20,263 nt of DNA from Nitrospinota bacterium (GTDB lineage: Bacteria; 2-12-FULL-45-22; JACOWJ01). The stretch's first letter is position 1; the number at the start of each line of letters is the position of its first letter. The DNA is taken from the NCBI GenBank assembly GCA_016176845.1, contig JACOWJ010000052.1:1-20263 (forward strand), in the 5' to 3' direction. The notes under the pieces were generated by a model. It ran no database searches. It was not told the DNA's origin and saw only the letters and a program-made list of their open reading frames with translations. Positions 1 through 13,609 of the stretch are shown here, piece by piece. A program made the position numbers and the translations under genes.

Positions 1-1203
1 CTGAACAAGCGGGGACTGTTGACCCAGCGGAAGTTCTATGCCCTGCGGGAGGTCCTGTACGACAACTATATCGACGTAATGCAGTACGACGAGGATAAGG
101 GCAGCAAGACCGGGACCAACGGCCTGATGAACAAGTTCCTGGTGCTCTACGAGACCCCCGCCGATGTCCGGGGAACTTCGCAGGTCAAGTTGACCTACCT
201 CAACAGCCCCGTGGCCAAGTGGAAGATGACAGACGCCTGGACTTATTCCCCGGGCCTTCGCAGGGTAACCCGGGCCCAGGGAGGAGACCGGCAGGACGAG
301 GCCCTGGGCACCCCGGTGACCAACGACGACAACGGGGAGCGTAACGTCTGGGAGGAGGAGCACTCCCTGATCGGCGAGGACGTCCTCTACATGCAGATGC
401 TCGACCCCCAGTTCCTCGCCCCAGACCGGATGTTCAATACCGGTGACCTTAAGGTGGACGGCGAGTGGCTCGCCAAGAACCTGGAGCCCGCCCGCGGGGA
501 GGAGCGGTTGAGCCCCTACCGGCCTGATGGGGGAATCGAGTGCTGGGTGGTCTTGAGCCAGTGGGCCAAACGAACGGATAAGTTCGGCTCCCACGTCTTT
601 CCTAACCCCAAAGACTATTACCTGAAGTACCGGATCACCTGGGTCGAGAAGGTCACCAAGACCCCCGTCCGGGAGGAACAGTACGACCACGACAACCGGC
701 TGATCAAACATGGGTTCTCCTTTAACCCCGAGATGTTCGCCGGCGGGTTCGTGAACGGTGGCAACAGCCGGACGCAGTACATGATGTACGACTACCGGCG
801 GCACTTTCGCTCTTGGGGAACTTATGACCGAACCGACATGGGTCCCAAGGCCAAGGTCCCGGAGGACTGGTACAGTCCCGAGCACCTCTTCCGGGAGTAC
901 TTCTGGAAGAAGGTGAAGATTCCCTTGATGAAGAGCGTCAAGGAGTTCTGCCCTCCGGCGGAGCTCTACCGGGCCAAGTTCCCCAGGTACCGCAAGGGGG
1001 CGAGCGATTGGATCTCCAAGGAGGACATGGCTTACATGATCAACATCTGGAAGGAGCATGGCTTCACCGATGAGGAGATCGACGCCATGATGAACGGGGA
1101 TGGGGTCATCCGCAAGGGCGGCAAGGCCATCCCGGTCCGGCGCAACGTCCGGCCGGCCCATATCCACGGCAAGCCCCTGCCGGTGAAGTTCCCCACGGGC
1201 TAG
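1..1203 (+). CDS. DUF1329 (LolA-like) envelope protein, 5' end outside the window
   Basis: The frame is already open at base 1 and no start with a ribosome binding site is visible, so this is the 3' portion of a longer gene (about 400 codons here). The segment with AWTYSPGLRRVTR, followed by a DD pair and a Gly-Glu-Asp turn about 25-40 residues later, resembles the core of DUF1329, a periplasmic or outer-membrane-associated family with a LolA/LolB-like fold. The rest is rich in Tyr, Trp and charged residues and has no membrane segment, as expected for a secreted protein whose signal peptide is off the left edge. DUF1329 genes usually lie beside DUF1302 and MMPL/RND genes; both occur downstream here. 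The family has been linked to moving hydrophobic molecules across the periplasm, but no substrate can be read from the sequence. A hairpin begins at the stop codon. Family call moderately sure. Confidence 0.72.
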   Translation: MNKRGLLTQRKFYALREVLYDNYIDVMQYDEDKGSKTGTNGLMNKFLVLYETPADVRGTSQVKLTYLNSPVAKWKMTDAWTYSPGLRRVTRAQGGDRQDEALGTPVTNDDNGERNVWEEEHSLIGEDVLYMQMLDPQFLAPDRMFNTGDLKVDGEWLAKNLEPARGEERLSPYRPDGGIECWVVLSQWAKRTDKFGSHVFPNPKDYYLKYRITWVEKVTKTPVREEQYDHDNRLIKHGFSFNPEMFAGGFVNGGNSRTQYMMYDYRRHFRSWGTYDRTDMGPKAKVPEDWYSPEHLFREYFWKKVKIPLMKSVKEFCPPAELYRAKFPRYRKGASDWISKEDMAYMINIWKEHGFTDEEIDAMMNGDGVIRKGGKAIPVRRNVRPAHIHGKPLPVKFPTG

Positions 1204-1223
1204 CGGCCTTCGCAGAAGGCCGC
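1203..1223 (+). terminator. Perfect 9-bp GC-rich hairpin at the end of the DUF1329 gene
   Basis: GCGGCCTTC (1203-1211) pairs perfectly with GAAGGCCGC (1215-1223) around a 3-nt loop, starting on the last base of the stop codon. The tract that follows is A/T-rich but is not a clean T-run, so it is either an imperfect intrinsic terminator or an mRNA 3' stabiliser. Confidence 0.5.
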
Positions 1224-1225
1224 AA

Positions 1226-1260
1226 TTGAAAATTGAAAATTTTAAATTGTAAATTGCAAG
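1226..1260. repeat. AT-rich heptamer array (TTGAAAA-type)
   Basis: Five consecutive 7-bp units in phase: TTGAAAA, TTGAAAA, TTTTAAA, TTGTAAA, TTGCAAG. The first two are the reverse complement of the TTTTCAA unit that makes up the array at 1400-1434, so the two arrays flank 1261-1399 in inverted orientation. Confidence 0.8.
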
Positions 1261-1399
1261 GCACTGTGAAGGAATACTCGTAGAAGCGCTTCACGCAACC
1301 AGGAATCCCATGTGATCAGCCTTGTGAGTACCACGGCAGGCTAGCCAAGCGGGCTTTCACGGCAGGGGAACACGGTTGAATGGAGGTGTATCTACACGT
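1261..1399. other. Unassigned spacer between two inverted heptamer arrays
   Basis: This 139-bp stretch is GC-richer than the arrays on either side and has no convincing ORF in any frame. It contains the 10-bp palindrome GAAGCGCTTC (about 1284-1293). It could be the remnant of a mobile element or a structured RNA, but nothing in it identifies which. Confidence 0.3.
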
Positions 1400-1434
1400 T
1401 TTTCAATTTTCAATTTTCAATTTTCAATTTTCAA
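1400..1434. repeat. Five perfect tandem copies of TTTTCAA
   Basis: The 7-bp unit TTTTCAA is repeated five times without a mismatch and ends about 15 bp before the protease start codon. Its position just upstream of the ribosome binding site means it would lie in the leader of that mRNA. Confidence 0.9.
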
Positions 1435-1449
1435 TGGAGCGTAGCGACC

Positions 1450-1872
1450 ATGGGAGATGTCTATGTAGAAATTACGCTGGAAAATTATATCGACAGGATC
1501 CTGGTTAAAAGGGGGTATTTGGAGCCTGAAAAGATCCGGGTGGAAAAGGTGAAAGTCCTGGCAGATTCGGGCTCTACCATGCTGGTACTCCCTCAGGATT
1601 TGGTAGAAAGGCTGGGGCTGGAATTGACCTCGGAAAAGGTCATTGTGACCTATGCCGATGAGAGGAAAGAGGCAAGGCCCGTGGCGGGAGTTGTAACGGT
1701 AAGGGTAGGTGATAGAAGCATGGAGTGCGACTGTGTGATCAATCCTCCTGCCAGTGAGCCTCTCCTGGGCCAGATCGTCTTGGAGCGGCTTGACCTGTTG
1801 GTTGATTGCAAGGAAGGGAAGCTGGTCCCAAGACCGGAATCTCCCTATCTGCCCCTGTTAAAGATGAAGTGA
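1450..1872 (+). CDS. Small retropepsin-like (clan AA) aspartic protease
   Basis: This 140-residue protein has the layout of single-domain bacterial retropepsin-like proteases. The catalytic motif Asp39-Ser-Gly lies in VLADSGSTMLVLP (about 36-48). A beta-rich middle follows, then the C-terminal PLLGQIVLERLDLLVD segment (about 104-119), which corresponds to the hydrophobic-hydrophobic-Gly element that packs against the active site. Such proteins act as homodimers, each supplying one Asp. No signal peptide or membrane segment is visible, so a cytoplasmic location is most likely. The ATG at 1450 has GGAG about 9 nt upstream. A hairpin with a T-tract follows the stop, so it may be transcribed apart from the porin gene. 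Its substrate is unknown. Some family members are annotated only as hypothetical proteins near toxin-antitoxin or repeat-rich DNA, and this one sits beside a heptamer array. Confidence 0.82.
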   Translation: MGDVYVEITLENYIDRILVKRGYLEPEKIRVEKVKVLADSGSTMLVLPQDLVERLGLELTSEKVIVTYADERKEARPVAGVVTVRVGDRSMECDCVINPPASEPLLGQIVLERLDLLVDCKEGKLVPRPESPYLPLLKMK

Positions 1873-1910
1873 AAGCGTACGCTATTTCTCGATCTCCTGC
1901 CTGATGGGAG

Positions 1911-1938
1911 AAAAACCCTATCGGGAGGAGGGGTTTTT
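1911..1938 (+). terminator. Candidate intrinsic terminator after the protease gene
   Basis: AAAAACCC (1911-1918) pairs with GGGTTTTT (1931-1938) around a 12-nt loop. The run of five T at the 3' side fits Rho-independent termination. The stem is A/T-rich and so only moderately stable. Confidence 0.45.
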
Positions 1939-2010
1939 GGATGACGCTGACGACGATCAGCGGCTTAGGGTCAGGTTTTTGGCTTTCAACGCTTTCCAAG
2001 GAGGAAAAGG

Positions 2011-4095
2011 ATGAGATTCAGCTTGAAGAAATTTCTGGGATTGCTCATCTTGATCCCCTTCCTTTTGTCCGGTTATGCATACGCCGTGGCGGAGGAGGGG
2101 GAGACCGAAGGCAAAAAGGAAGAGGCGGCCGTTGAAGAGGCAAAGCCAGAAGCGGCCCCAGAACCGGGGGAGGTGAAGCCGGAAGAGCCGGCCCCGGGGA
2201 CGAAGGAGGAAGCACCCGGAGCAACGGGAGAAAAGGAGGGGAAGGGATTCTATCAAGAATACGTCAAGCCCGCCGACTATGCGATCTCGCGGGCCTTCAT
2301 GAAGATCTCTCCCCTGGAGAGCCCGGTCGTGACTCAGTTCAGGCTTCTGGGGAGCCAGATCGATTACCTGACCGAGGCCATCCCCGGCCTGGAGATCATG
2401 GGCATGATCAAGAACCGAACCTGGGTCAACACCCACGGCCGGTCGGGATACACCTCCGGGGGCGGGGATCTGCACGGCGACGCCCGGGGCAACATCAACA
2501 ACAAGGGGAGGAGGGTCTCCCAGTTCAACATGATCGAGTGGCTAGGGGAGCTGGAGATGCGGTACTCCATCAGCCCCAACTTCTCCCTGACGAGCGTCCT
2601 GAACTACCGCTACGACTCGCTCTACGACTGGGACAAGGGCCACATTTTGGGGGGCACCGAGAAGCCTTACCCCGATGAGATCAAGCGGTTCGGACTCCGG
2701 ACCGCGCAGGCCATGGGGCTGGTCCGGCGCCAATTAGAGAAGGAGGTCGAGAAAGAGCAGAGCTATTACCGGGATACCAAGCAGATCCTGCGGGAGCTCT
2801 ACCTGGATGCGATCTTCCCCTCGTCGGAGAACGGGACGGTCAGCTTCCGCCTGGGCAAGCAGCAGGTGGGGCTGGGAAAGCAGGACTTCAACGTGATCGA
2901 CCTGATTTCGCCGCGGTGGAGTGTTGAATCGCCCTATAGCGACTCGCCCAACCTGGAATGGGACCGGCAGCCGACCTGGATGACCAACGTCTCCTACACC
3001 TTCCCGGAGCGGATCCTGCCCGGCGTCAGCATGAAGTTCATCTGGATTCCCGATTTTGAGCCGAACTACACGAACAATAGGGCTGGGGCGCCCAACTTTG
3101 GCCGGGGGCGACCGCTCGTCCGGGAAGACCTGACCAATCCCCATAGGGTCATTCGCGCCCGCAACGGGGTCCTGCTCGGCCCCGCCACCCTCACTGCCGC
3201 CGATAGAGCCAGGGGGGTTCAGCCTGTTGGCGTCACGACGAGCCCCCCGATCGACGACCCCACCGATTGGTCCTTCGGCGGGAGCGAGTGGGCCTTCAAC
3301 GTCGAGTTCGCCGGGCCCATGCATGGGACGCAGTGGATCCCCGTCCTGGGGGAGGGATGGCAGACGGGCCTCTGGTGGCTGTCGGACTTCGAGGGCGGAT
3401 TTACCAACTTCCGGCGAGGGGTGAGGCAGGGGCGAGGCTGCACTGCCACCCCAACCTCACCCTGTGTCGCGCGGCCGAACGAGCTGAAGTTTACCCGCAA
3501 GGAGCACTTCATGTGGGGGACAGACAAGAACTTCTACTGGGCGGGCCGCTACTGGCTCTTCAAGTGGGAGCAGAACTTCGTCTTCGGCGTCCCGGTGGCG
3601 GACGCCCGGGAGAACACCACTGCAGCCTCTCTGGCAACCGTCTACCCCGGCCTCACCGCGGCGCAGCGGGGGATCATCGCCAGGCGGAACCTGCGGTTCA
3701 ATGACGGCTTCAAGAAGTCGAACCGCATGGACACTGGCGTCACCGTCACCACCAAGTTCCTGACCGATCTGGGCGTGAATATCCTGTACATCGACCAGCG
3801 ATGGCTCAACCGGCCCCTGAGGAGCGGTACGAGAAGGCTCAACGCCAACGTCTTGCTCTGGAGCTTGTCGTATCCGTTGGAGGGAACGGAGGACCGGCTG
3901 ACCCCGTCGATAACCACGTACGTCAACCTGGTGGGGCCGGCCAGCTGGCGGCAGCAGTACGTGCTGGGCTATGACCTGGGGGAGAACACCAAGTTGTCTT
4001 TCGAGTACATGTGGCTCTCGGGGGACTCTGACACCGGCTATGGCGGCTGGGACGACTGGGACCTGTTCCGCTTTAAGGTCACCCACAAGTTTTAA
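2011..4095 (+). CDS. DUF1302-family outer-membrane beta-barrel protein
   Basis: This is a 694-residue protein. Residues 1-27 form a Sec signal peptide (basic MRFSLKKF, hydrophobic core, cleavage near AYA). Residues about 28-75 are a Glu/Pro/Ala-rich low-complexity linker. The remainder has alternating aromatic strands typical of a beta-barrel. The segments RLGKQQVGLGKQDFNVIDLI (about 288-307) and MKFIWIPDFEP are hallmarks of DUF1302, and the protein ends in Phe (VTHKF), the usual C-terminal signal for outer-membrane assembly. AAGGAGG sits about 7 nt before the ATG, a strong ribosome binding site. DUF1302 proteins are thought to be the outer-membrane partner of DUF1329 and MMPL/RND proteins. 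The Glu/Pro-rich linker after the signal is unusual. A fragment homologous to its C-terminus lies at 5041-5262, so this gene was once part of a tandem pair. Confidence 0.87.
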   Translation: MRFSLKKFLGLLILIPFLLSGYAYAVAEEGETEGKKEEAAVEEAKPEAAPEPGEVKPEEPAPGTKEEAPGATGEKEGKGFYQEYVKPADYAISRAFMKISPLESPVVTQFRLLGSQIDYLTEAIPGLEIMGMIKNRTWVNTHGRSGYTSGGGDLHGDARGNINNKGRRVSQFNMIEWLGELEMRYSISPNFSLTSVLNYRYDSLYDWDKGHILGGTEKPYPDEIKRFGLRTAQAMGLVRRQLEKEVEKEQSYYRDTKQILRELYLDAIFPSSENGTVSFRLGKQQVGLGKQDFNVIDLISPRWSVESPYSDSPNLEWDRQPTWMTNVSYTFPERILPGVSMKFIWIPDFEPNYTNNRAGAPNFGRGRPLVREDLTNPHRVIRARNGVLLGPATLTAADRARGVQPVGVTTSPPIDDPTDWSFGGSEWAFNVEFAGPMHGTQWIPVLGEGWQTGLWWLSDFEGGFTNFRRGVRQGRGCTATPTSPCVARPNELKFTRKEHFMWGTDKNFYWAGRYWLFKWEQNFVFGVPVADARENTTAASLATVYPGLTAAQRGIIARRNLRFNDGFKKSNRMDTGVTVTTKFLTDLGVNILYIDQRWLNRPLRSGTRRLNANVLLWSLSYPLEGTEDRLTPSITTYVNLVGPASWRQQYVLGYDLGENTKLSFEYMWLSGDSDTGYGGWDDWDLFRFKVTHKF

Positions 4096-4121
4096 CGGCC
4101 TGGCCGGAGATTTTGACTGGC

Positions 4122-4195
4122 TGAGATTTCCAGGGTGTCCCCAGGGACCTGGAGACCCTTCGGGGCGCACCCCTTGAGGCGCCTTGGAAATCTCA
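4122..4195. repeat. 11-bp inverted repeat enclosing a GC-rich hairpin region
   Basis: TGAGATTTCCA (4122-4132) and TGGAAATCTCA (4185-4195) are perfect inverted repeats, and the pairing can extend inward through G-C and G-T pairs. The 52-bp interior has further CCC/GGG runs that can fold. It lies just after the porin stop codon, so it may end that transcript. Its right arm overlaps the spacer of the toxin-antitoxin promoter. It could instead be the terminal repeats of a small element. Confidence 0.6.
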
Positions 4196-4202
4196 GTATA
4201 AT
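4174..4202 (+). promoter_or_regulatory. Near-consensus sigma70 promoter for the AT-rich toxin-antitoxin island
   Basis: TTGAGG (4174-4179) is separated by exactly 17 bp from a perfect TATAAT (4197-4202). Transcription would start near 4209 and read into the 56-residue ORF and hicBA. The spacer overlaps the right arm of the 4122-4195 inverted repeat. Confidence 0.65.
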
Positions 4203-4220
4203 TTGTGGTTGGGTGGCGGT

Positions 4221-4253
4221 TATCTAGATAGTTCACCCCTTTGTGTCGTGAAC
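4221..4253 (+). promoter_or_regulatory. Candidate operator palindromes downstream of the hicBA promoter
   Basis: TATCTAGATA (4221-4230) is a perfect 10-bp palindrome. GTTCAC (4231-4236) and GTGAAC (4248-4253) form a second inverted repeat. Both lie just downstream of the predicted transcription start, a common position for toxin-antitoxin autoregulatory operators. Binding by HicB is an inference. Confidence 0.35.
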
Positions 4254-4286
4254 ACTTTGCGGTTTCACATTTTGAGGAATTTCCAA

Positions 4287-4457
4287 ATGCCAAGGAGACT
4301 AAAAGACATTAAAGAGATCAAGATCGAGCGGCTACTACGGGCTAAGCTTTCTGCAGAAGAATCTCTGAAGCGGACACAAGAGTTTGACAAGCGAAAGGAG
4401 AAATTCATTGCCTCTATTCGAGAGAGCAAGGAGAGAAGTTATTTGCCAAAATTATAG
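4287..4457 (+). CDS. Small charged hypothetical protein ahead of hicBA
   Basis: The ORF encodes 56 residues, MPRRLKDIKEIKIERLLRAK at the N-terminus and then Lys/Glu-rich, predicted mostly helical and without Cys, signal peptide or membrane segment. The ATG at 4287 has GAGG about 10 nt upstream; a TTG 84 bp earlier keeps the frame open but has no binding site. It is AT-rich like hicB and hicA and unlike the GC-rich flanks, lies downstream of the same promoter, and ends 62 bp before the chosen hicB start. I do not recognise a family. Its placement suggests it travels with the toxin-antitoxin pair, possibly as a third component, but that is only inferred from position. Confidence 0.55.
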   Translation: MPRRLKDIKEIKIERLLRAKLSAEESLKRTQEFDKRKEKFIASIRESKERSYLPKL

Positions 4458-4519
4458 AATTGTTTAGTGGAGAAAAGAACAAAAACGGCTCTTTGACGAT
4501 TATGAGAGAGATGGATGCT

Positions 4520-4783
4520 ATGAATATATTTATAAAGATTGAGATATTTAAGGAAGAAGATGTTTATGTAGCACTGTCACCAGAACTAAATGTTTCTAGC
4601 TTCGGTGATACCATTGAAGATGCTAAAAATTCCATTAAAGAGGCTATAAAGGCTTTTATTGAAGAATGCGAAATAATGGGGACATTGGAGGATGTTTTGG
4701 AAGAATCGGGTTTTTTAAAAATTAATGCCTCATGGGAACTAAGAAAACCTGTTGAGGAAGAAAATATCGCCGTTGTAATATAG
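4520..4783 (+). CDS. hicB: HicB-family antitoxin
   Basis: The predicted protein has 87 residues. It has the partial RNase H-like HicB pattern: an N-terminal strand (MNIFIKIEIFKEEDVYVALS), a Pro-Glu-Leu step, then SSFGDTIEDAKNSIKEAIKA, where Gly-Asp-Thr and the amphipathic helix match the family. Members bind and neutralise the HicA RNase. No added ribbon-helix-helix or helix-turn-helix domain is evident at the C-terminus, so direct autoregulation is uncertain. The frame is open back to a TTG at 4460 and has ATGs at 4502 and 4511. I prefer 4520 because homologues begin right before the first strand and GAGAGAG lies roughly 10 nt upstream. Here the antitoxin precedes the toxin, the reverse of the classic hicA-hicB order. 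Codon use is strongly AT-biased relative to neighbours, suggesting horizontal acquisition. Confidence 0.82.
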   Translation: MNIFIKIEIFKEEDVYVALSPELNVSSFGDTIEDAKNSIKEAIKAFIEECEIMGTLEDVLEESGFLKINASWELRKPVEEENIAVVI

Positions 4784-4792
4784 ATTAATTAA

Positions 4793-5035
4793 ATGTACGA
4801 GAGAAAAATTATTCCTATTCACTATGAAATCCTGGTAAATATATTTGAACTTGATGGTTTTGTTGTCCAGAGGATGAGAGGAGATCATATTATAATGACA
4901 AAGGCTGGCATAAAAAGACCTCTTGTCATAAAGACCAGCCCAAAGCTTGTCCCTGTGACACACATTCGCACCAATATGACAACGGCTGGGATGATAAGAG
5001 AACGTTTCTTTGAACTTTTAGAAAAGGTCAGATAA
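4793..5035 (+). CDS. hicA: HicA-family toxin (double-stranded-RNA-binding-like mRNA interferase)
   Basis: This 80-residue protein has the HicA/YcfA pattern: a short N-terminal helix, the strand DGFVVQRMRG, the catalytic-type GDHIIM with His32, then a strand (KRPLVIKT) and a C-terminal helix (TTAGMIRERFFELLEKV). In characterised members the conserved His drives translation-dependent mRNA cleavage. It starts 9 bp after the hicB stop, consistent with translational coupling; no good Shine-Dalgarno is seen. The usual Gly-Ser-His is Gly-Asp-His here, so activity should not be assumed. Its stop is followed within 6 bp by the remnant of a second DUF1302 gene, marking the right edge of the AT-rich block. 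Confidence 0.82.
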   Translation: MYERKIIPIHYEILVNIFELDGFVVQRMRGDHIIMTKAGIKRPLVIKTSPKLVPVTHIRTNMTTAGMIRERFFELLEKVR

Positions 5036-5040
5036 AGGGA

Positions 5041-5262
5041 CAAGAGGGGGCGGAGGACCAGCCCTTGCCGGCGGTGACCACCTTCCACCACCTGAGGTCG
5101 GGGCCAGTCAACTGGCGGCAACGGATCGAACTGAGCTGCGACCTGGGGGAGAATACCAAGATGTATTTCGACTACAACTGGTTCTCGGGGAAGTCCGACA
5201 CCACCTATGGCGGCTGGGACGACTGGGACCAGATCCGCATCGGGGTCACCCACAAGTTCTAA
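5041..5262 (+). pseudogene. C-terminal remnant of a second DUF1302 porin gene
   Basis: In frame to the stop at 5262 this encodes about 73 residues that align with the last 73 residues of the 694-residue porin. Shared features are EG-ED, GP--WRQ, DLGENTK, YGGWDDWD and the terminal VTHKF. Alignment starts at 5041, immediately after the hicA stop, and corresponds to position 3877 in the intact gene. It has no start codon with a ribosome binding site and lacks signal peptide and most of the barrel, so it is not a functional gene. It is GC-rich, unlike the block to its left. It is best read as the tail of a tandem paralogue whose front part was replaced or deleted with arrival of the hicBA block. 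Confidence 0.85.
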
Positions 5263-5441
5263 CAGCCGAGATTTACATGGAAGAAGGCTACGATATCGGC
5301 ATGAACGTCATTGAGTGGTCAATGGCAAATGCAGGAGAGGCAAAATGTAGTGTCACCCAACATGATGAACAAAAAACCCGGCAAGGATAACATCTATGGG
5401 CAAAATAGGATGTGCCAGGCAAGGCTTGCGAGGTATTTGAA
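5263..5441. other. Spacer between porin remnant and antitoxin-like gene
   Basis: The 179 bp hold only a 37-codon ORF (5277-5390) with no ribosome binding site or recognisable family. No clear promoter or hairpin was found. Base composition changes from GC-rich to AT-rich across it. Confidence 0.3.
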
Positions 5442-5618
5442 ATGGATTCGATTAAAGAAGTAACTATAGAAACTATAAAACGATTACCTGATGAGTGTTC
5501 ATTGGAAGACATAATGTATGAAGTAAATTTTGTCGCTCAAGTTCTTGAAGGGCTTAGAGATGCTGAAAACGGGGAATTGTTGACCACGGAAGAACTTCTC
5601 AACAGAGTTGAACAATGA
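5442..5618 (+). CDS. Orphan antitoxin-like small protein (RelB/ParD-type partner)
   Basis: The protein has 58 residues. The pattern IKRLPDECSLEDIMYEVNF then a helix with EGLRDAENGELLTTEELLNRV is typical of small antitoxins paired with RelE/ParE toxins: a Leu-Pro-(D/E) turn, an Asp-Ile-Met-Tyr helix, a Gly-Leu-x-(D/E)-x-(E/D)-x-Gly segment and a terminal Glu-Glu-x-x-x-Arg helix. The ATG at 5442 has GAGG about 8 nt upstream; a GTG at 5412 is less well placed. Immediately downstream lie the last codons of a toxin of that type in another frame, so the antitoxin seems intact while the toxin is destroyed. It may persist by neutralising related toxins elsewhere, or may simply be decaying. Confidence 0.62.
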   Translation: MDSIKEVTIETIKRLPDECSLEDIMYEVNFVAQVLEGLRDAENGELLTTEELLNRVEQ

Positions 5619-5691
5619 TGTGGAAATACTTGGAGTAGTGCATGGTGCTCGTGAAATCAAAACAGCATTCCGGCAAGAATGGGAACTATAG
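5617..5691 (+). pseudogene. C-terminal fragment of a RelE/ParE-type toxin
   Basis: In frame from 5617 to the TAG at 5689-5691 the translation reads DVEILGVVHGAREIKTAF and ends with six more residues. The pattern Val-x-Ile-Leu-x-Val-Val-His-Gly-Ala-Arg is the characteristic last strand of RelE/ParE toxins. Only 24 codons remain and no start codon lies in this frame. The out-of-frame ATG at 5618 stops after six codons. The fragment overlaps the antitoxin stop, as a toxin start normally would, so most of the toxin appears to be internally deleted. Confidence 0.6.
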
Positions 5692-5711
5692 TTGAACGAG
5701 AGGTTAGGCCA

Positions 5712-6506
5712 ATGCGCGCTGTAGAACAGGAAGTCTCCCCCCGACGGGAGCGGCCGATCATCGATTATCCCGACTCGGATGGGGAGCCCATGGCCGACAA
5801 TGATCCGCAGTACCGCTGCATCACCGATACCCGCTTCGCCCTGGAGCAGTATTACCATGATGATTTCCGGGTCTACGTCGGGGCCGATCTGCTGATCTAC
5901 TACGTCGAAGGCGACCCCACCAAGTCGGTGGCTCCGGATGTATTGGTCTCGTTGGGGGTGCCCAAGAGGAATCGGCGAAGCTACCGGCTGTGGGAGGAGG
6001 GCAAGCCCCCAGACGTGGTCTACGAGTTCGCCTCGGAGCGATCGTGGCGCGGAGATCTGGGATGGAAGCGGGGGCTGTACGAGGGGTTGGGAATCCGGGA
6101 ATATTTCCTGTTCGATCCCACGGGGGAATACTTCTCTCCGGTACTGCGGGGCTACCGGCTGGAGGAGGAGGTCTACCAACGGCTACCGCTGATGGAGTCC
6201 CCCTCTGGAGAGATCAGCCTGGTCAGCGAAGTGCTGGGGCTGGAGCTGTGGGTGAAGACCGACGGAGAGGAAGGGATGCCCTGGGTGCTCCGATTATATG
6301 ACCCGAAGACAGGCAAATGGCTGCCGACGCCGGCCGAGGAGGCCGAGGCCCGCCGCACTGCCGAAGCCCGTGCGGCCGAAGCCGAAGCCCGCGCTGCCGA
6401 AGAGGCTCAGGCCCGCCACGCTGCTGAGGCCCGCGCCACTGCGCTGGCAGTGGAATTGGATCGCCTGCGGGCCGAGCTGGACCGAAAGGCAGGCCAGGGA
6501 GGATAG
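5712..6506 (+). CDS. Uma2-family (DUF820) restriction endonuclease-like protein with C-terminal coiled coil
   Basis: From the ATG at 5712 the protein has 264 residues. The N-terminal two thirds carry the Uma2 PD-(D/E)XK-like pattern: APDVLV with Asp76, then VVYEFASE with Glu105, a conserved Lys119 in GDLGWKRGLYEGLGIREYF, then FDPTGEYFSPVLRGYRL. The tail (about 215-264) is a run of Ala/Glu/Arg heptad-like repeats predicted to be a coiled coil, as in many Uma2 proteins of cyanobacteria and Chloroflexi. An ATG at 5679 would overlap the toxin fragment; I chose 5712 because GAGAGG lies upstream, though the binding site is weak. Uma2 genes occur in large numbers in some genomes and have been suggested to be nucleases; their role is unproven. 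It ends 25 bp before the SUMF1 lipoprotein gene, so the two are probably co-transcribed. Confidence 0.83.
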   Translation: MRAVEQEVSPRRERPIIDYPDSDGEPMADNDPQYRCITDTRFALEQYYHDDFRVYVGADLLIYYVEGDPTKSVAPDVLVSLGVPKRNRRSYRLWEEGKPPDVVYEFASERSWRGDLGWKRGLYEGLGIREYFLFDPTGEYFSPVLRGYRLEEEVYQRLPLMESPSGEISLVSEVLGLELWVKTDGEEGMPWVLRLYDPKTGKWLPTPAEEAEARRTAEARAAEAEARAAEEAQARHAAEARATALAVELDRLRAELDRKAGQGG

Positions 6507-6531
6507 AAAAATAAAATTAGGGAGGAACAAA

Positions 6532-7380
6532 ATGAAAAAGCCATGCATCTCCATGGGCATCCTTATGATCCCGATGATCTTCTTTTTCCTGCCGATCCTG
6601 TCCGCCTGCATCTCCGCCGACTCCAAAGAAGAAGAAGCTACAGAAGTGATCCTGGGCAAGATGATCTTTATCCCGGAGGGGGAGTTCACCATGGGCAGCG
6701 ATGACCCCGAATTGCGGGGCTACTTCGACATCTGGGGGGGCAAGGCCAGATTTCAAAAGCCGGTCGGAACCGCTCGGAAGGTCCACGTGAAGGGCTTTTA
6801 CATCGATTCCCACGAGGTCACTCAGGGGCAGTACAAGAAGTTCATCGACGACACGCATTATCCCCCGCCCTCTTACTGGGAGAACGGGACCTTCCCGGCA
6901 GGAAAAGAGAACCACCCCGTTCATAGCGTGAGCTGGTCGGATGCCCGGGCCTATGCCAGGTGGGCGGGCAAACGGCTCCCCACCGAAGAGGAGTGGGAAA
7001 AGGCCGCCCGGGGGGGAGATCTGCGAGTTTTCCCATGGGGCAACCAGCCCGAGGGGGCCATGGCGCAGTTGTGGAAAACGGCCTGGGGAAAGACCGAAGG
7101 GCCCCAACCCATCGGAAAGTTCAAATTCGATAAGAGCCCCTATGGAGTGAGGGACATGGCGAGCAACCTGATGGAGTGGACCGCTTCGACCTATGAGTAC
7201 CAAGGGGTGGTCACCCAAGGCCGCGCATGGGAGGAGAGCAGCTCCGGGACGGAGATCGTCGTCAAAGGAGGGAATTGGAGCTCTGAAATGGCTGATGGCA
7301 TGATCTCGCGCAAGATCCTGGCTCCGCCGGGTGAGATCAGCAATGGGATCGGCTTTCGGTGCGTGAAAGATGCCAAATGA
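6532..7380 (+). CDS. SUMF1/FGE-domain lipoprotein, likely not a formylglycine-generating enzyme
   Basis: The 282-residue protein begins with a lipoprotein signal: a long hydrophobic stretch and the lipobox LSAC with Cys26. The rest is a sulfatase-modifying-factor fold: MIFIPEGEFTMGSDD (about 44-58), FYIDSHEVTQGQYKKF (89-104), VSWSDARAYARWAGKRLPTE (133-152) followed by EEWEKAARGG, then VVKGGNWSS (243-251) and GFRCVKD near the end. The paired catalytic cysteines of true FGE are absent: the stretch after GGNWSS has none. It is therefore more like the large group of SUMF1-domain envelope proteins of unknown or ligand-binding role. GGAGG lies 6 nt before the ATG, a strong start. It is probably tethered on the periplasmic side of a membrane and lies between the Uma2 and MMPL genes. 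Confidence 0.85.
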   Translation: MKKPCISMGILMIPMIFFFLPILSACISADSKEEEATEVILGKMIFIPEGEFTMGSDDPELRGYFDIWGGKARFQKPVGTARKVHVKGFYIDSHEVTQGQYKKFIDDTHYPPPSYWENGTFPAGKENHPVHSVSWSDARAYARWAGKRLPTEEEWEKAARGGDLRVFPWGNQPEGAMAQLWKTAWGKTEGPQPIGKFKFDKSPYGVRDMASNLMEWTASTYEYQGVVTQGRAWEESSSGTEIVVKGGNWSSEMADGMISRKILAPPGEISNGIGFRCVKDAK

Positions 7381-7423
7381 ACGCCGCCTTGCTCCGTTGG
7401 AGCAGGATGAGCAGCCCTTTCAT

Positions 7424-7451
7424 TTTTGAATTTTGAATTTTCAATTTTCAA
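7424..7451. repeat. Heptamer array TTTTGAA x2, TTTTCAA x2
   Basis: Four in-phase 7-bp units fill the gap before the MMPL gene. The TTTTCAA units match the array at 1400-1434, which is likewise just upstream of a gene start. Confidence 0.85.
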
Positions 7452-7453
7452 TT

Positions 7454-7472
7454 CGACATTCCTCGAATGTCG
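7454..7472 (+). promoter_or_regulatory. Perfect 8-bp hairpin just upstream of the MMPL start
   Basis: CGACATTC (7454-7461) pairs with GAATGTCG (7465-7472) around a CTC loop. It ends about 6 nt before the weak ribosome binding site (AGGTG near 7479) of the transporter gene, so in the mRNA it could tune translation or processing. It could also be an attenuating structure after the SUMF1 gene. Confidence 0.45.
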
Positions 7473-7489
7473 TCAAGTAGGTGCGAAAA

Positions 7490-9847
7490 ATGGACGTATT
7501 TGCCCGGCTCTTCGCCCGGAACGTCATCCGACTCCGGTGGCCCTTGTTCTTCCTGGTCCTTGCCCTTACGCTCTTTTTCTCCTATCAGCTGAGGAAGATC
7601 TCCCTCGACCAGCACCTGACGGAGATCGCCCCCGAGGGGCACCCCTACGTCCAGCTCAATCGATACATGACCGGCGTCTTCGGCGGGTATGCCATGGTCC
7701 AGATTGCCATGGAGGTCCGGCAGGGCGAGGTATTCGATCCCAAGTCCCTGGGCAAGCTCTACCGCATCCAGCAGCAGTTGGAGCACTTGAGCGGCGTCGT
7801 GCCCGGAGGTGTCGTCTCCATCGTATCCCGGAAGCTCAAACATGTCTATGCGACCACGGATGAGCATGGCTACCCGATGCTGACCACCGAAAGTCTGAAG
7901 GATATGGTGGAACGGGTCTTCCGTGGGCCCCGTGGGGACGGCGTGGAGGGAACAAGTTACCGCCGCACCTTGCTGAACGACGAGCGGATCTATGGCCCTC
8001 TGATCTCCCGCGATCGGAAATCGACGGTCATTCAGGTTCAGTTCTTCTCGGATAAAGATTACCTCTATCTCTTCAACCAGGTGAAACAGATCATCGAGAA
8101 GGAGGGAGATTCCCACACCCGGTTCTTCCTTTCCGGGAGGCCCATCGCCATGGGATATCTATACACCCACATGCGGGAGATGATTCTCCTCTTTGCCCTG
8201 GCGATCGGGATCACCATGGTCCTGCTCCTCTTCGCCTTCGGCACGGCCCGGGGGGTATTGATCCCCCTGTGGGCCGGCCTGGTCACCGTCGTATGGGGCC
8301 TGGGCAGCGAGGCGCTCTTGGGGATCCAGATCGACATCATGAGCATCATCGTGCCCTTCATGATCATGGCGATCGAGGTGAGCCACTCGGTCCAGATCCT
8401 CAATCGGTACTACGAGGAGTTCGACCGGTGGAGAGACAATCAGAAGGCGGCCGAGGAGGCCCTGGCGCACCTCTTCGTCCCTGGCCTCTCCTCGATCATC
8501 ACGGATGGGGCCGGGTTCGCCACGTTGTTGATCGTCCCGTTCCGGTTGATCCAGATGATGGCGGGCCTGGCGACCTATGGGGTCCTGCGGATCCTGCTCA
8601 CTACCATCGTCTTCCTGCCGGCCTTCCTGGCGATCCTGCCCGCCCCCAGCGAGAAGGAGCTGGCCCGGTTCAAGAGCCGGGGGCAGTTCTTGGGGAAGAT
8701 CCTGGAGCGGATCGCCCTGATCTCTTACCACCGCAAGGGTCTGGTGGGGGCCCTGGCCCTGATCCTTCTGGCCATCGGGATCGCCGGCGCCGCCCGCCTG
8801 GAGGTGGGCGAAATGCAGCCCGGCTCCCCCATCTTCTGGCAGAGCTCGGAATACAACCGGGCCGAGGCCATCAACAACCATTTCACGGGGACCAATCCCT
8901 ACCAGTTGTACATCGAGGGACAGCGGGAGTTCGACCTGTGGGATCCGCAGGTGGTCCGGAAGATCCACCGCCTGCAGCGCCACCTGGAGGAGCGGGAAGA
9001 TATCCGGGGAAGCCGCTCTTACGTGGACGTGCTGATCAGCATGAACCGGGTCTCCCACGATAACGACCCCCGCTGGGAGATCCTCCCTAAGGAGCGGAGG
9101 CTCATCGCGGAGTACCTGGAGAGGTTCTCGCGATCCGGGGGGCCGGAGGCTTCCAAGGGCTACTTCGAGATGGATTTTCGCGAGGCGAACCTGACGCTCT
9201 TCGTCAAGGATCACCGGGGCCAGACCATCCGCGAGATCCTCCGGGACACCGACGAGTTCCTGGCGAAAAGCCCGGAAAACGTCTGCGTCGATATCAAGCC
9301 GGCGGCCGGGATCATCGGGGTCTATGCCGCCATCATGGAGGAGATCAAGCGGGGCCAGCTGGGGAACTTGCTCCAGATCTCGGCGGTGGTCTTCCTCTTC
9401 TGTCTCTTGACCTTCCGCTCCTTCGTGGCCTCGTTCATGATCCTTTTGACGTTGGGCCTGGGCTGCCTGATCACGTATGCAGTGATGGGATATGGGCGGA
9501 TTGGGCTGTTTATCTATACCCTTCCCATCGCTTCCTTGGGCATGGGCCTCGGGGTGGACTATGCACTCTACGTGGTCAGCCGGTTAAAAGAGGAGGCCAG
9601 CGCGGAGCCAGACCTGGAAAAGGCCTGGGTAAAAGCGATGACCACCTCCGGCGGGGCGATCTTCTACACGGCGATGTCGATCGCCGTCGGAGTAGCCACC
9701 CTCCTTCTCTCTGGTATCCGGTTCCAGGCGATCATGGGGGGGATGCTTACCGTGGTGACGTTCGTCAATATGGTGGGGGCCTTGCTCTTCCTGCCAGCCC
9801 TCATCGCATGGGCTCGTCCGCGATTTTTGGTGAACGGAAAGCAGTAA
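7490..9847 (+). CDS. MMPL/RND-superfamily inner-membrane transporter
   Basis: The 785-residue protein has the duplicated RND layout. A first membrane helix (about 14-32) is followed by a large periplasmic loop, a six-helix bundle (about 218-390), a second periplasmic loop, and a second bundle (about 620-780). Signature elements are IMAIEVSHSVQILNRYYEE in the first half (about 291-309) and GLGVDYALYVVSRLKEE in the second (about 685-701), the Gly-x-Asp-Tyr-(A/S) motif of MMPL and hydrophobe/amphiphile efflux-3 proteins. The first half has Glu-Val-Ser-His where an Asp is usual, so proton coupling may rest mainly on the second half. I chose the ATG at 7490; a GTG at 7481 is an alternative. With DUF1329 and DUF1302 nearby, it is likely the energy-driven part of a lipid or hydrophobic-compound export path. 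Confidence 0.92.
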   Translation: MDVFARLFARNVIRLRWPLFFLVLALTLFFSYQLRKISLDQHLTEIAPEGHPYVQLNRYMTGVFGGYAMVQIAMEVRQGEVFDPKSLGKLYRIQQQLEHLSGVVPGGVVSIVSRKLKHVYATTDEHGYPMLTTESLKDMVERVFRGPRGDGVEGTSYRRTLLNDERIYGPLISRDRKSTVIQVQFFSDKDYLYLFNQVKQIIEKEGDSHTRFFLSGRPIAMGYLYTHMREMILLFALAIGITMVLLLFAFGTARGVLIPLWAGLVTVVWGLGSEALLGIQIDIMSIIVPFMIMAIEVSHSVQILNRYYEEFDRWRDNQKAAEEALAHLFVPGLSSIITDGAGFATLLIVPFRLIQMMAGLATYGVLRILLTTIVFLPAFLAILPAPSEKELARFKSRGQFLGKILERIALISYHRKGLVGALALILLAIGIAGAARLEVGEMQPGSPIFWQSSEYNRAEAINNHFTGTNPYQLYIEGQREFDLWDPQVVRKIHRLQRHLEEREDIRGSRSYVDVLISMNRVSHDNDPRWEILPKERRLIAEYLERFSRSGGPEASKGYFEMDFREANLTLFVKDHRGQTIREILRDTDEFLAKSPENVCVDIKPAAGIIGVYAAIMEEIKRGQLGNLLQISAVVFLFCLLTFRSFVASFMILLTLGLGCLITYAVMGYGRIGLFIYTLPIASLGMGLGVDYALYVVSRLKEEASAEPDLEKAWVKAMTTSGGAIFYTAMSIAVGVATLLLSGIRFQAIMGGMLTVVTFVNMVGALLFLPALIAWARPRFLVNGKQ

Positions 9848-13424: not shown

Positions 13425-13444
13425 AGTCCACGATCCTAAGGAAG

Positions 13445-13519
13445 TGGCTGGGGCGGAAGGATTCGAACCTTCAGATGGCGGATCCAGAGTCCGCTGCCTT
13501 GCCGTTTGGCTACGCCCCA
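13445..13519 (-). tRNA. tRNA-Gln (anticodon CUG), CCA encoded
   Basis: The reverse strand folds as a full cloverleaf: acceptor stem TGGGGCG/CGCCCCA, D-arm GCC...GGC, anticodon stem GCGGA/TCCGC around loop CTCTGGA giving anticodon CTG, and T-arm with GGTTCGAATCC. The discriminator base is G, followed by an encoded CCA (13445-13447). The anticodon reads CAG (Gln). It lies upstream of glnS, the gene for its own synthetase, and in the same orientation. Confidence 0.95.
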
Positions 13520-13609
13520 AATATTTTTACCGTGAAAATGCCCGCGCCTTTCTGGAGCCCATTTGCATTCTCGGCGGCGGCCAACTTTGCCTGGCCATGA
13601 TGGTCTGAA

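Follow-up and report, generated by a model that had tools for sequence, protein, structure and literature searches.

The window analyzed here, a stretch of 20,263 bases, is the entire contig C39 of a 1.53 Mb draft genome (68% complete, 61 contigs). It opens with a DUF1329 gene cut by the contig start, followed by genes for an aspartyl protease and a porin and then by the block under study; after the block come Uma2, SUMF1-like, MMPL transporter, and cupredoxin-like genes and, further on, the nuo cluster (Table 1). The SUMF1, cupredoxin, and nuo labels were given by eye and by likeness to genes of Nitrospinae bacterium RIFCSPLOWO2_12_FULL_45_22 (G001), not by profile; this was the one other genome of the phylum in the comparison, with none from the same genus or family. 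The only Rfam match in the window was to the tRNA, and a plus-strand ORF at 13444–13608 (AGAEGFEPSDGGSRVRCLAVW...) runs antisense over a tRNA-Gln gene and is no real protein.

Table 1 Features of the locus, in window coordinates
Feature	Position	Strand	Basis
DUF1329 gene	19–1203		PF07044, 6.9e-9
Intact DUF1302-like outer-membrane porin, 694 aa	2011–4095	+	ORF; homologues match PF06980
Strong hairpin, no T tract	4120–4197	+	−47.2 kcal/mol, z −5.2
AT-rich block, GC 0.37	4184–5036	.	Three-segment maximum-likelihood split
56-codon ORF ahead of hicB, of no known family, uncertain as a gene	4287–4457	+	
hicB-like antitoxin gene (87 aa) lacking a DNA-binding domain	4520–4783	+	PF15919, E 1.3e-3; model resembles HicB 6g1c
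hicA-like toxin gene, 80 aa, GDH histidine H32	4793–5035	+	PF07927, E 3.6e-5; model resembles HicA 6g26
Putative porin remnant: 72 C-terminal codons plus stop, from a second copy	5044–5262	+	61% aa and 77% nt identity to 3880–4095
Antitoxin-like ORF, 68 aa	5412–5618	+	Homologues in 8 other genomes
ParE/RelE-like toxin C-terminal tail (DVEILGVVHGAREI), rest missing	5611–5691	+	Matches toxin C-terminus in L036
MMPL (RND) transporter gene	7481–9847		Pfam, 5.7e-30

The porin and the AT-rich block

A reading of the letters and open reading frames alone (the sequence-only reading) had placed the end of an intact porin at position 4095, and the open reading frame bears this out. This full-length copy is unique in its own genome. 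It has no match to the Pfam DUF1302 model (PF06980) itself; three of five aligned homologues do match (best 1.6e-14), and we label it DUF1302 because of them. Its neighbors include DUF1329 and RND (MMPL) transporter genes, the context expected of DUF1302 (PF06980) porins. Beyond G001, no close homologue was found in 386 sampled genomes, and none in a first scan of genome contigs; a porin profile scan returned G001 and one distant Deltaproteobacterium, and nothing else.

Downstream, base composition changes. GC content is 0.64 and 0.62 on the two sides of the block and 0.37 within it; by gene, it is 0.62 in the porin, 0.34 in hicB, 0.37 in hicA, and 0.61 in the fragment that follows. Third-position GC sets the same genes further apart (porin 0.85, fragment 0.89; hicB 0.32, hicA 0.37), so the block is indeed AT-rich with a different codon bias, as the sequence-only reading held. 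Its description of the block as lying exactly against the porin and its duplicate holds on the right, where the limit coincides with the hicA stop codon (5033–5035), but not on the left, where the block begins only after some 90 bases of GC-rich sequence that lies outside the porin gene and contains the hairpin. Because the left limit falls within the hairpin that trails the porin, this much of the porin's 3′ flank remains. The hairpin may mark both the end of the porin transcript and the flank of a promoter of the block. No second copy of the hairpin or the block was found in the genome. A TATAAT-like sequence lies directly after the hairpin, at 4197–4202. For the 56-codon ORF further on, searches of Pfam, NCBIfam, PADLOC, and plasmids gave no hit.

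The two small genes of the block lie 9 bases apart, hicB first; the likeliest start codon of hicB, in agreement with its homologues, is ATG 4520 rather than TTG 4460. Neither protein reaches its Pfam gathering score (HicA 24.2 of 27 bits, HicB 19.3 of 27 bits), and a PDB sequence search gave no match for HicA and only weak ones for HicB; it is the predicted structures that settle the identity of the pair as HicA and HicB. The HicA model (pLDDT 93) has a dsRBD-like fold, and its best PDB matches are 1whz and the HicA of 6g26 from Burkholderia, the latter with E 1.9e-3, probability 1.00, and a target TM of 0.84. The HicB model, which reaches pLDDT 92 in only one of five models, has a partial RNase H fold that matches HicB 6g1c at 0.9 Å over 50 columns (E 0.035); neither Pfam nor the model gives HicB a DNA-binding domain. 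HicA H32, in an RGDH motif, is invariant across five homologues, and the role of the HicA catalytic histidine has been described (PMC11594946). The two would be expected to work as a toxin–antitoxin pair, with HicA cutting mRNA once HicB is depleted.

The nearest relative of the module that we found is in another phylum, shares 73% (HicA) and 55% (HicB) amino acid identity, and also has hicB first. No significant match was present in G001, and a search of plasmids for hicA gave none. The patchy spread of hicBA in a thin sample of 98 genomes fits horizontal transfer, and the module is probably foreign.

A probable porin remnant and a second, broken toxin–antitoxin pair

A fragment with the sequence of the porin C-terminus follows hicA. 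The two porin 3′ ends (5044–5262 against 3880–4095) align at 77% identity in nucleotides (E 4e-44), far above chance; over porin residues 624–694, amino acid identity is 61%. The sequence-only reading had the fragment begin at 5041, 6 bp past the hicA stop, and match the last 73 residues of the porin; the match and the frame stand, but homology proper begins one codon later, at 5044, eight bases past the stop codon, and covers 71–72 residues plus the stop. Against other DUF1302-type proteins (from G000, G001, and a Deltaproteobacterium) the fragment reaches at most 23% amino acid identity, in contrast to 61% with its neighbor, and sequence comparison supports it as a copy of the neighboring porin and of no other porin compared.

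Fragment and porin differ at 49 of 213 bases, with no stop or frameshift. The differences are spread 16/17/16 over the three codon positions, with dN/dS of about 0.84, as opposed to 54/39/127 and 0.18 in an intact porin pair of G001; under the G001 pattern, so few third-position changes have P = 0.0003. The fragment shows no sign of purifying selection, and the case that would have told against a remnant, a short gene maintained by selection, did not appear. Substitutions have no lean to AT (12 against 14). Past the two stop codons, 13 of 16 flanking bases are common to both copies (shuffle p 0.015), which weakly favors duplication of a whole gene. In all likelihood the stump is dead sequence.

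Shortly after the stump lies an antitoxin-like ORF, two of whose eight homologues have a ParE/RelE-like gene directly after them. Here the ORF runs directly into the last ~20 residues of such a toxin, in another frame; this tail matches the toxin C-terminus of L036 with a score of 46, attained in 0 of 2000 shuffles. Going by these matches, the stretch from 5412 to about 5690 is a second toxin–antitoxin pair that apparently lost its toxin by deletion. With a broken pair beside the stump, the interval 4184–5690 therefore looks like a site where small modules are gained and lost; the clustering and mobility of toxin–antitoxin modules are well documented (PMC10865869, PMC2701414).

G001 provides the only comparison within the phylum. 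On its contig C181 (MHDQ01000181), positions 98–7575 (L010) hold two tandem DUF1302–DUF1329 units with intact DUF1302 copies that are 88% identical and DUF1329 copies that are 80% identical; there is no hicBA, and the units adjoin homologues of the window's SUMF1-like and cupredoxin-like genes. The likeness to our locus is that of two DUF1302-type genes in tandem beside these two neighbors; G001 differs in having both copies intact, no hicBA, and another gene order, and its DUF1302 copies are only 26–27% identical to the window porin and are not orthologues of the stump. Tandem pairs thus arise in this order of bacteria, and the support for a tandem origin here is by analogy: G001 shows that such pairs are found in the lineage, without implying that one ever stood at this exact locus. 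An intact second DUF1302 gene without hicBA, which the sequence-only reading suggested looking for in relatives, was found in G001, in a different gene order, and no case of hicBA beside two intact porins turned up. The G001 units look like a recent amplification, in a sister lineage, of an uncharacterized outer-membrane system. Another intact DUF1302–DUF1329 pair, in the same genome as the window (G000, C36, 6455–14213; L011), sits among four genes that by eye resemble 2-hydroxyacyl-CoA dehydratase or benzoyl-CoA reductase subunits, a context that could point to an aromatic or lipid substrate.

Origin of the arrangement

We propose, with a probability of about 0.7, that two porin genes once stood in tandem at this locus, that the second was lost down to its tail, and that hicBA now occupies the gap. 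The second copy, whose full length we infer, would have diverged to ~61% identity in its C-terminal part before all but the final 72 codons disappeared; a small class 2 hicBA, rich in AT and probably gained by horizontal transfer, would now fill the space between the hairpin of the first porin and the stump. The stump, the module, the compositional limits, and the DUF1302 genes in tandem in G001, the single relative compared within the phylum, are direct observations. The proposal draws support from the fragment's resemblance to this porin alone, its open frame and retained GC content, the similar 3′ flanks, the block limit at the hicA stop, and the G001 pair; a foreign origin of hicBA is supported by the lack of a significant match in G001 and a closest match in another phylum. 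It is weakened because no same-genus or same-family genome shows the state before the event, because the G001 genes are distant and differently ordered, and because the genome itself is 68% complete. Further points against it come from the block: no remnant of the porin N-terminal part, of DUF1329, or of the aspartyl protease rises above chance there, so that nothing is left of the first 620 codons of the second porin; no 7-base repeat is shared by the two edges as a target-site duplication; and no recombinase was found.

The sequence-only reading was that the toxin–antitoxin block replaced most of the second gene of a tandem DUF1302 pair; the pair and the loss are supported, but the insertion of hicBA and the deletion of the second porin may have been one illegitimate recombination event or two. 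A sizable possibility, somewhat short of even odds, is that they were separate, an ordinary deletion leaving the stump and hicBA arriving earlier or later in a non-essential gap. The missing target-site duplication and recombinase leave no physical link between the two, the adjoining broken pair points to repeated small events, and an insertion beside the stump looks identical whatever the order; against this, a single event is simpler, and the stump starts only eight bases past the hicA stop. It seems very improbable that the capture of hicBA itself took out the target gene and put the module in its place in one recombinase-free step; were it true, small toxin–antitoxin modules could be gene-replacing cassettes that prune duplicated porins.

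It is unlikely that the porin 3′ end alone was copied downstream and never belonged to a full second gene. The even codon-position spread and the dN/dS are what a piece dead from birth would show, but simulated decay from birth kept the frame free of stops in only 14% of runs, and in 0.2–2% once frameshifts were added at an assumed 5–10 indels per 100 substitutions, and both GC and third-position GC remain at porin levels. Given the intact frame and these low odds, the fragment would have been coding for much of its divergence, and we read it as derived from a relaxed or fast-changing paralogue that was truncated later. We give very little credence to a misjoin between the two porin 3′ ends in the metagenome assembly: the draft is fragmented and porin and stump have a 26-base exact stretch in common, but this lies inside the stump, away from its edge, and the junctions at 4184 and 5036–5044 lie outside shared sequence. 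A functional short gene in operon with hicBA, to which the open frame and the nearby hicA stop might point, is hardly credible, and a stand-alone gene at 5044–5262 was rejected, since there is no ATG (only TTG 5065), no signal peptide, and no third-position bias, and the fragment is absent from L037 and L039, relatives with the same hicBA; 5065–5262 should not be annotated as a gene.

The loss of a tandem porin with hicBA in its place amounts to ordinary turnover of small mobile genes, for which a new mechanism is unnecessary. The locus leaves knowledge of HicBA or of DUF1302 porins unchanged and offers a clear single case, in a barely sampled phylum, of a toxin–antitoxin module located where a gene has been lost.

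Comparison with known systems

Class 2 hicBA modules have a small HicB without a DNA-binding domain, encoded before hicA (PMC10865869). The window module resembles them in gene order, in the sizes of its proteins, in the lack of a DNA-binding domain, in predicted folds and catalytic histidine, and in the toxin–antitoxin debris nearby; it differs in that both proteins fall under the Pfam gathering cut-offs and a porin stump adjoins. It also recalls the MNT-HEPN modules of Thermus and Deinococcus (PMC2701414), as a small module present at the locus in one lineage and absent from a relative. Those modules were inserted into syntenic operons, whereas here the neighboring gene copy was mostly lost as well.
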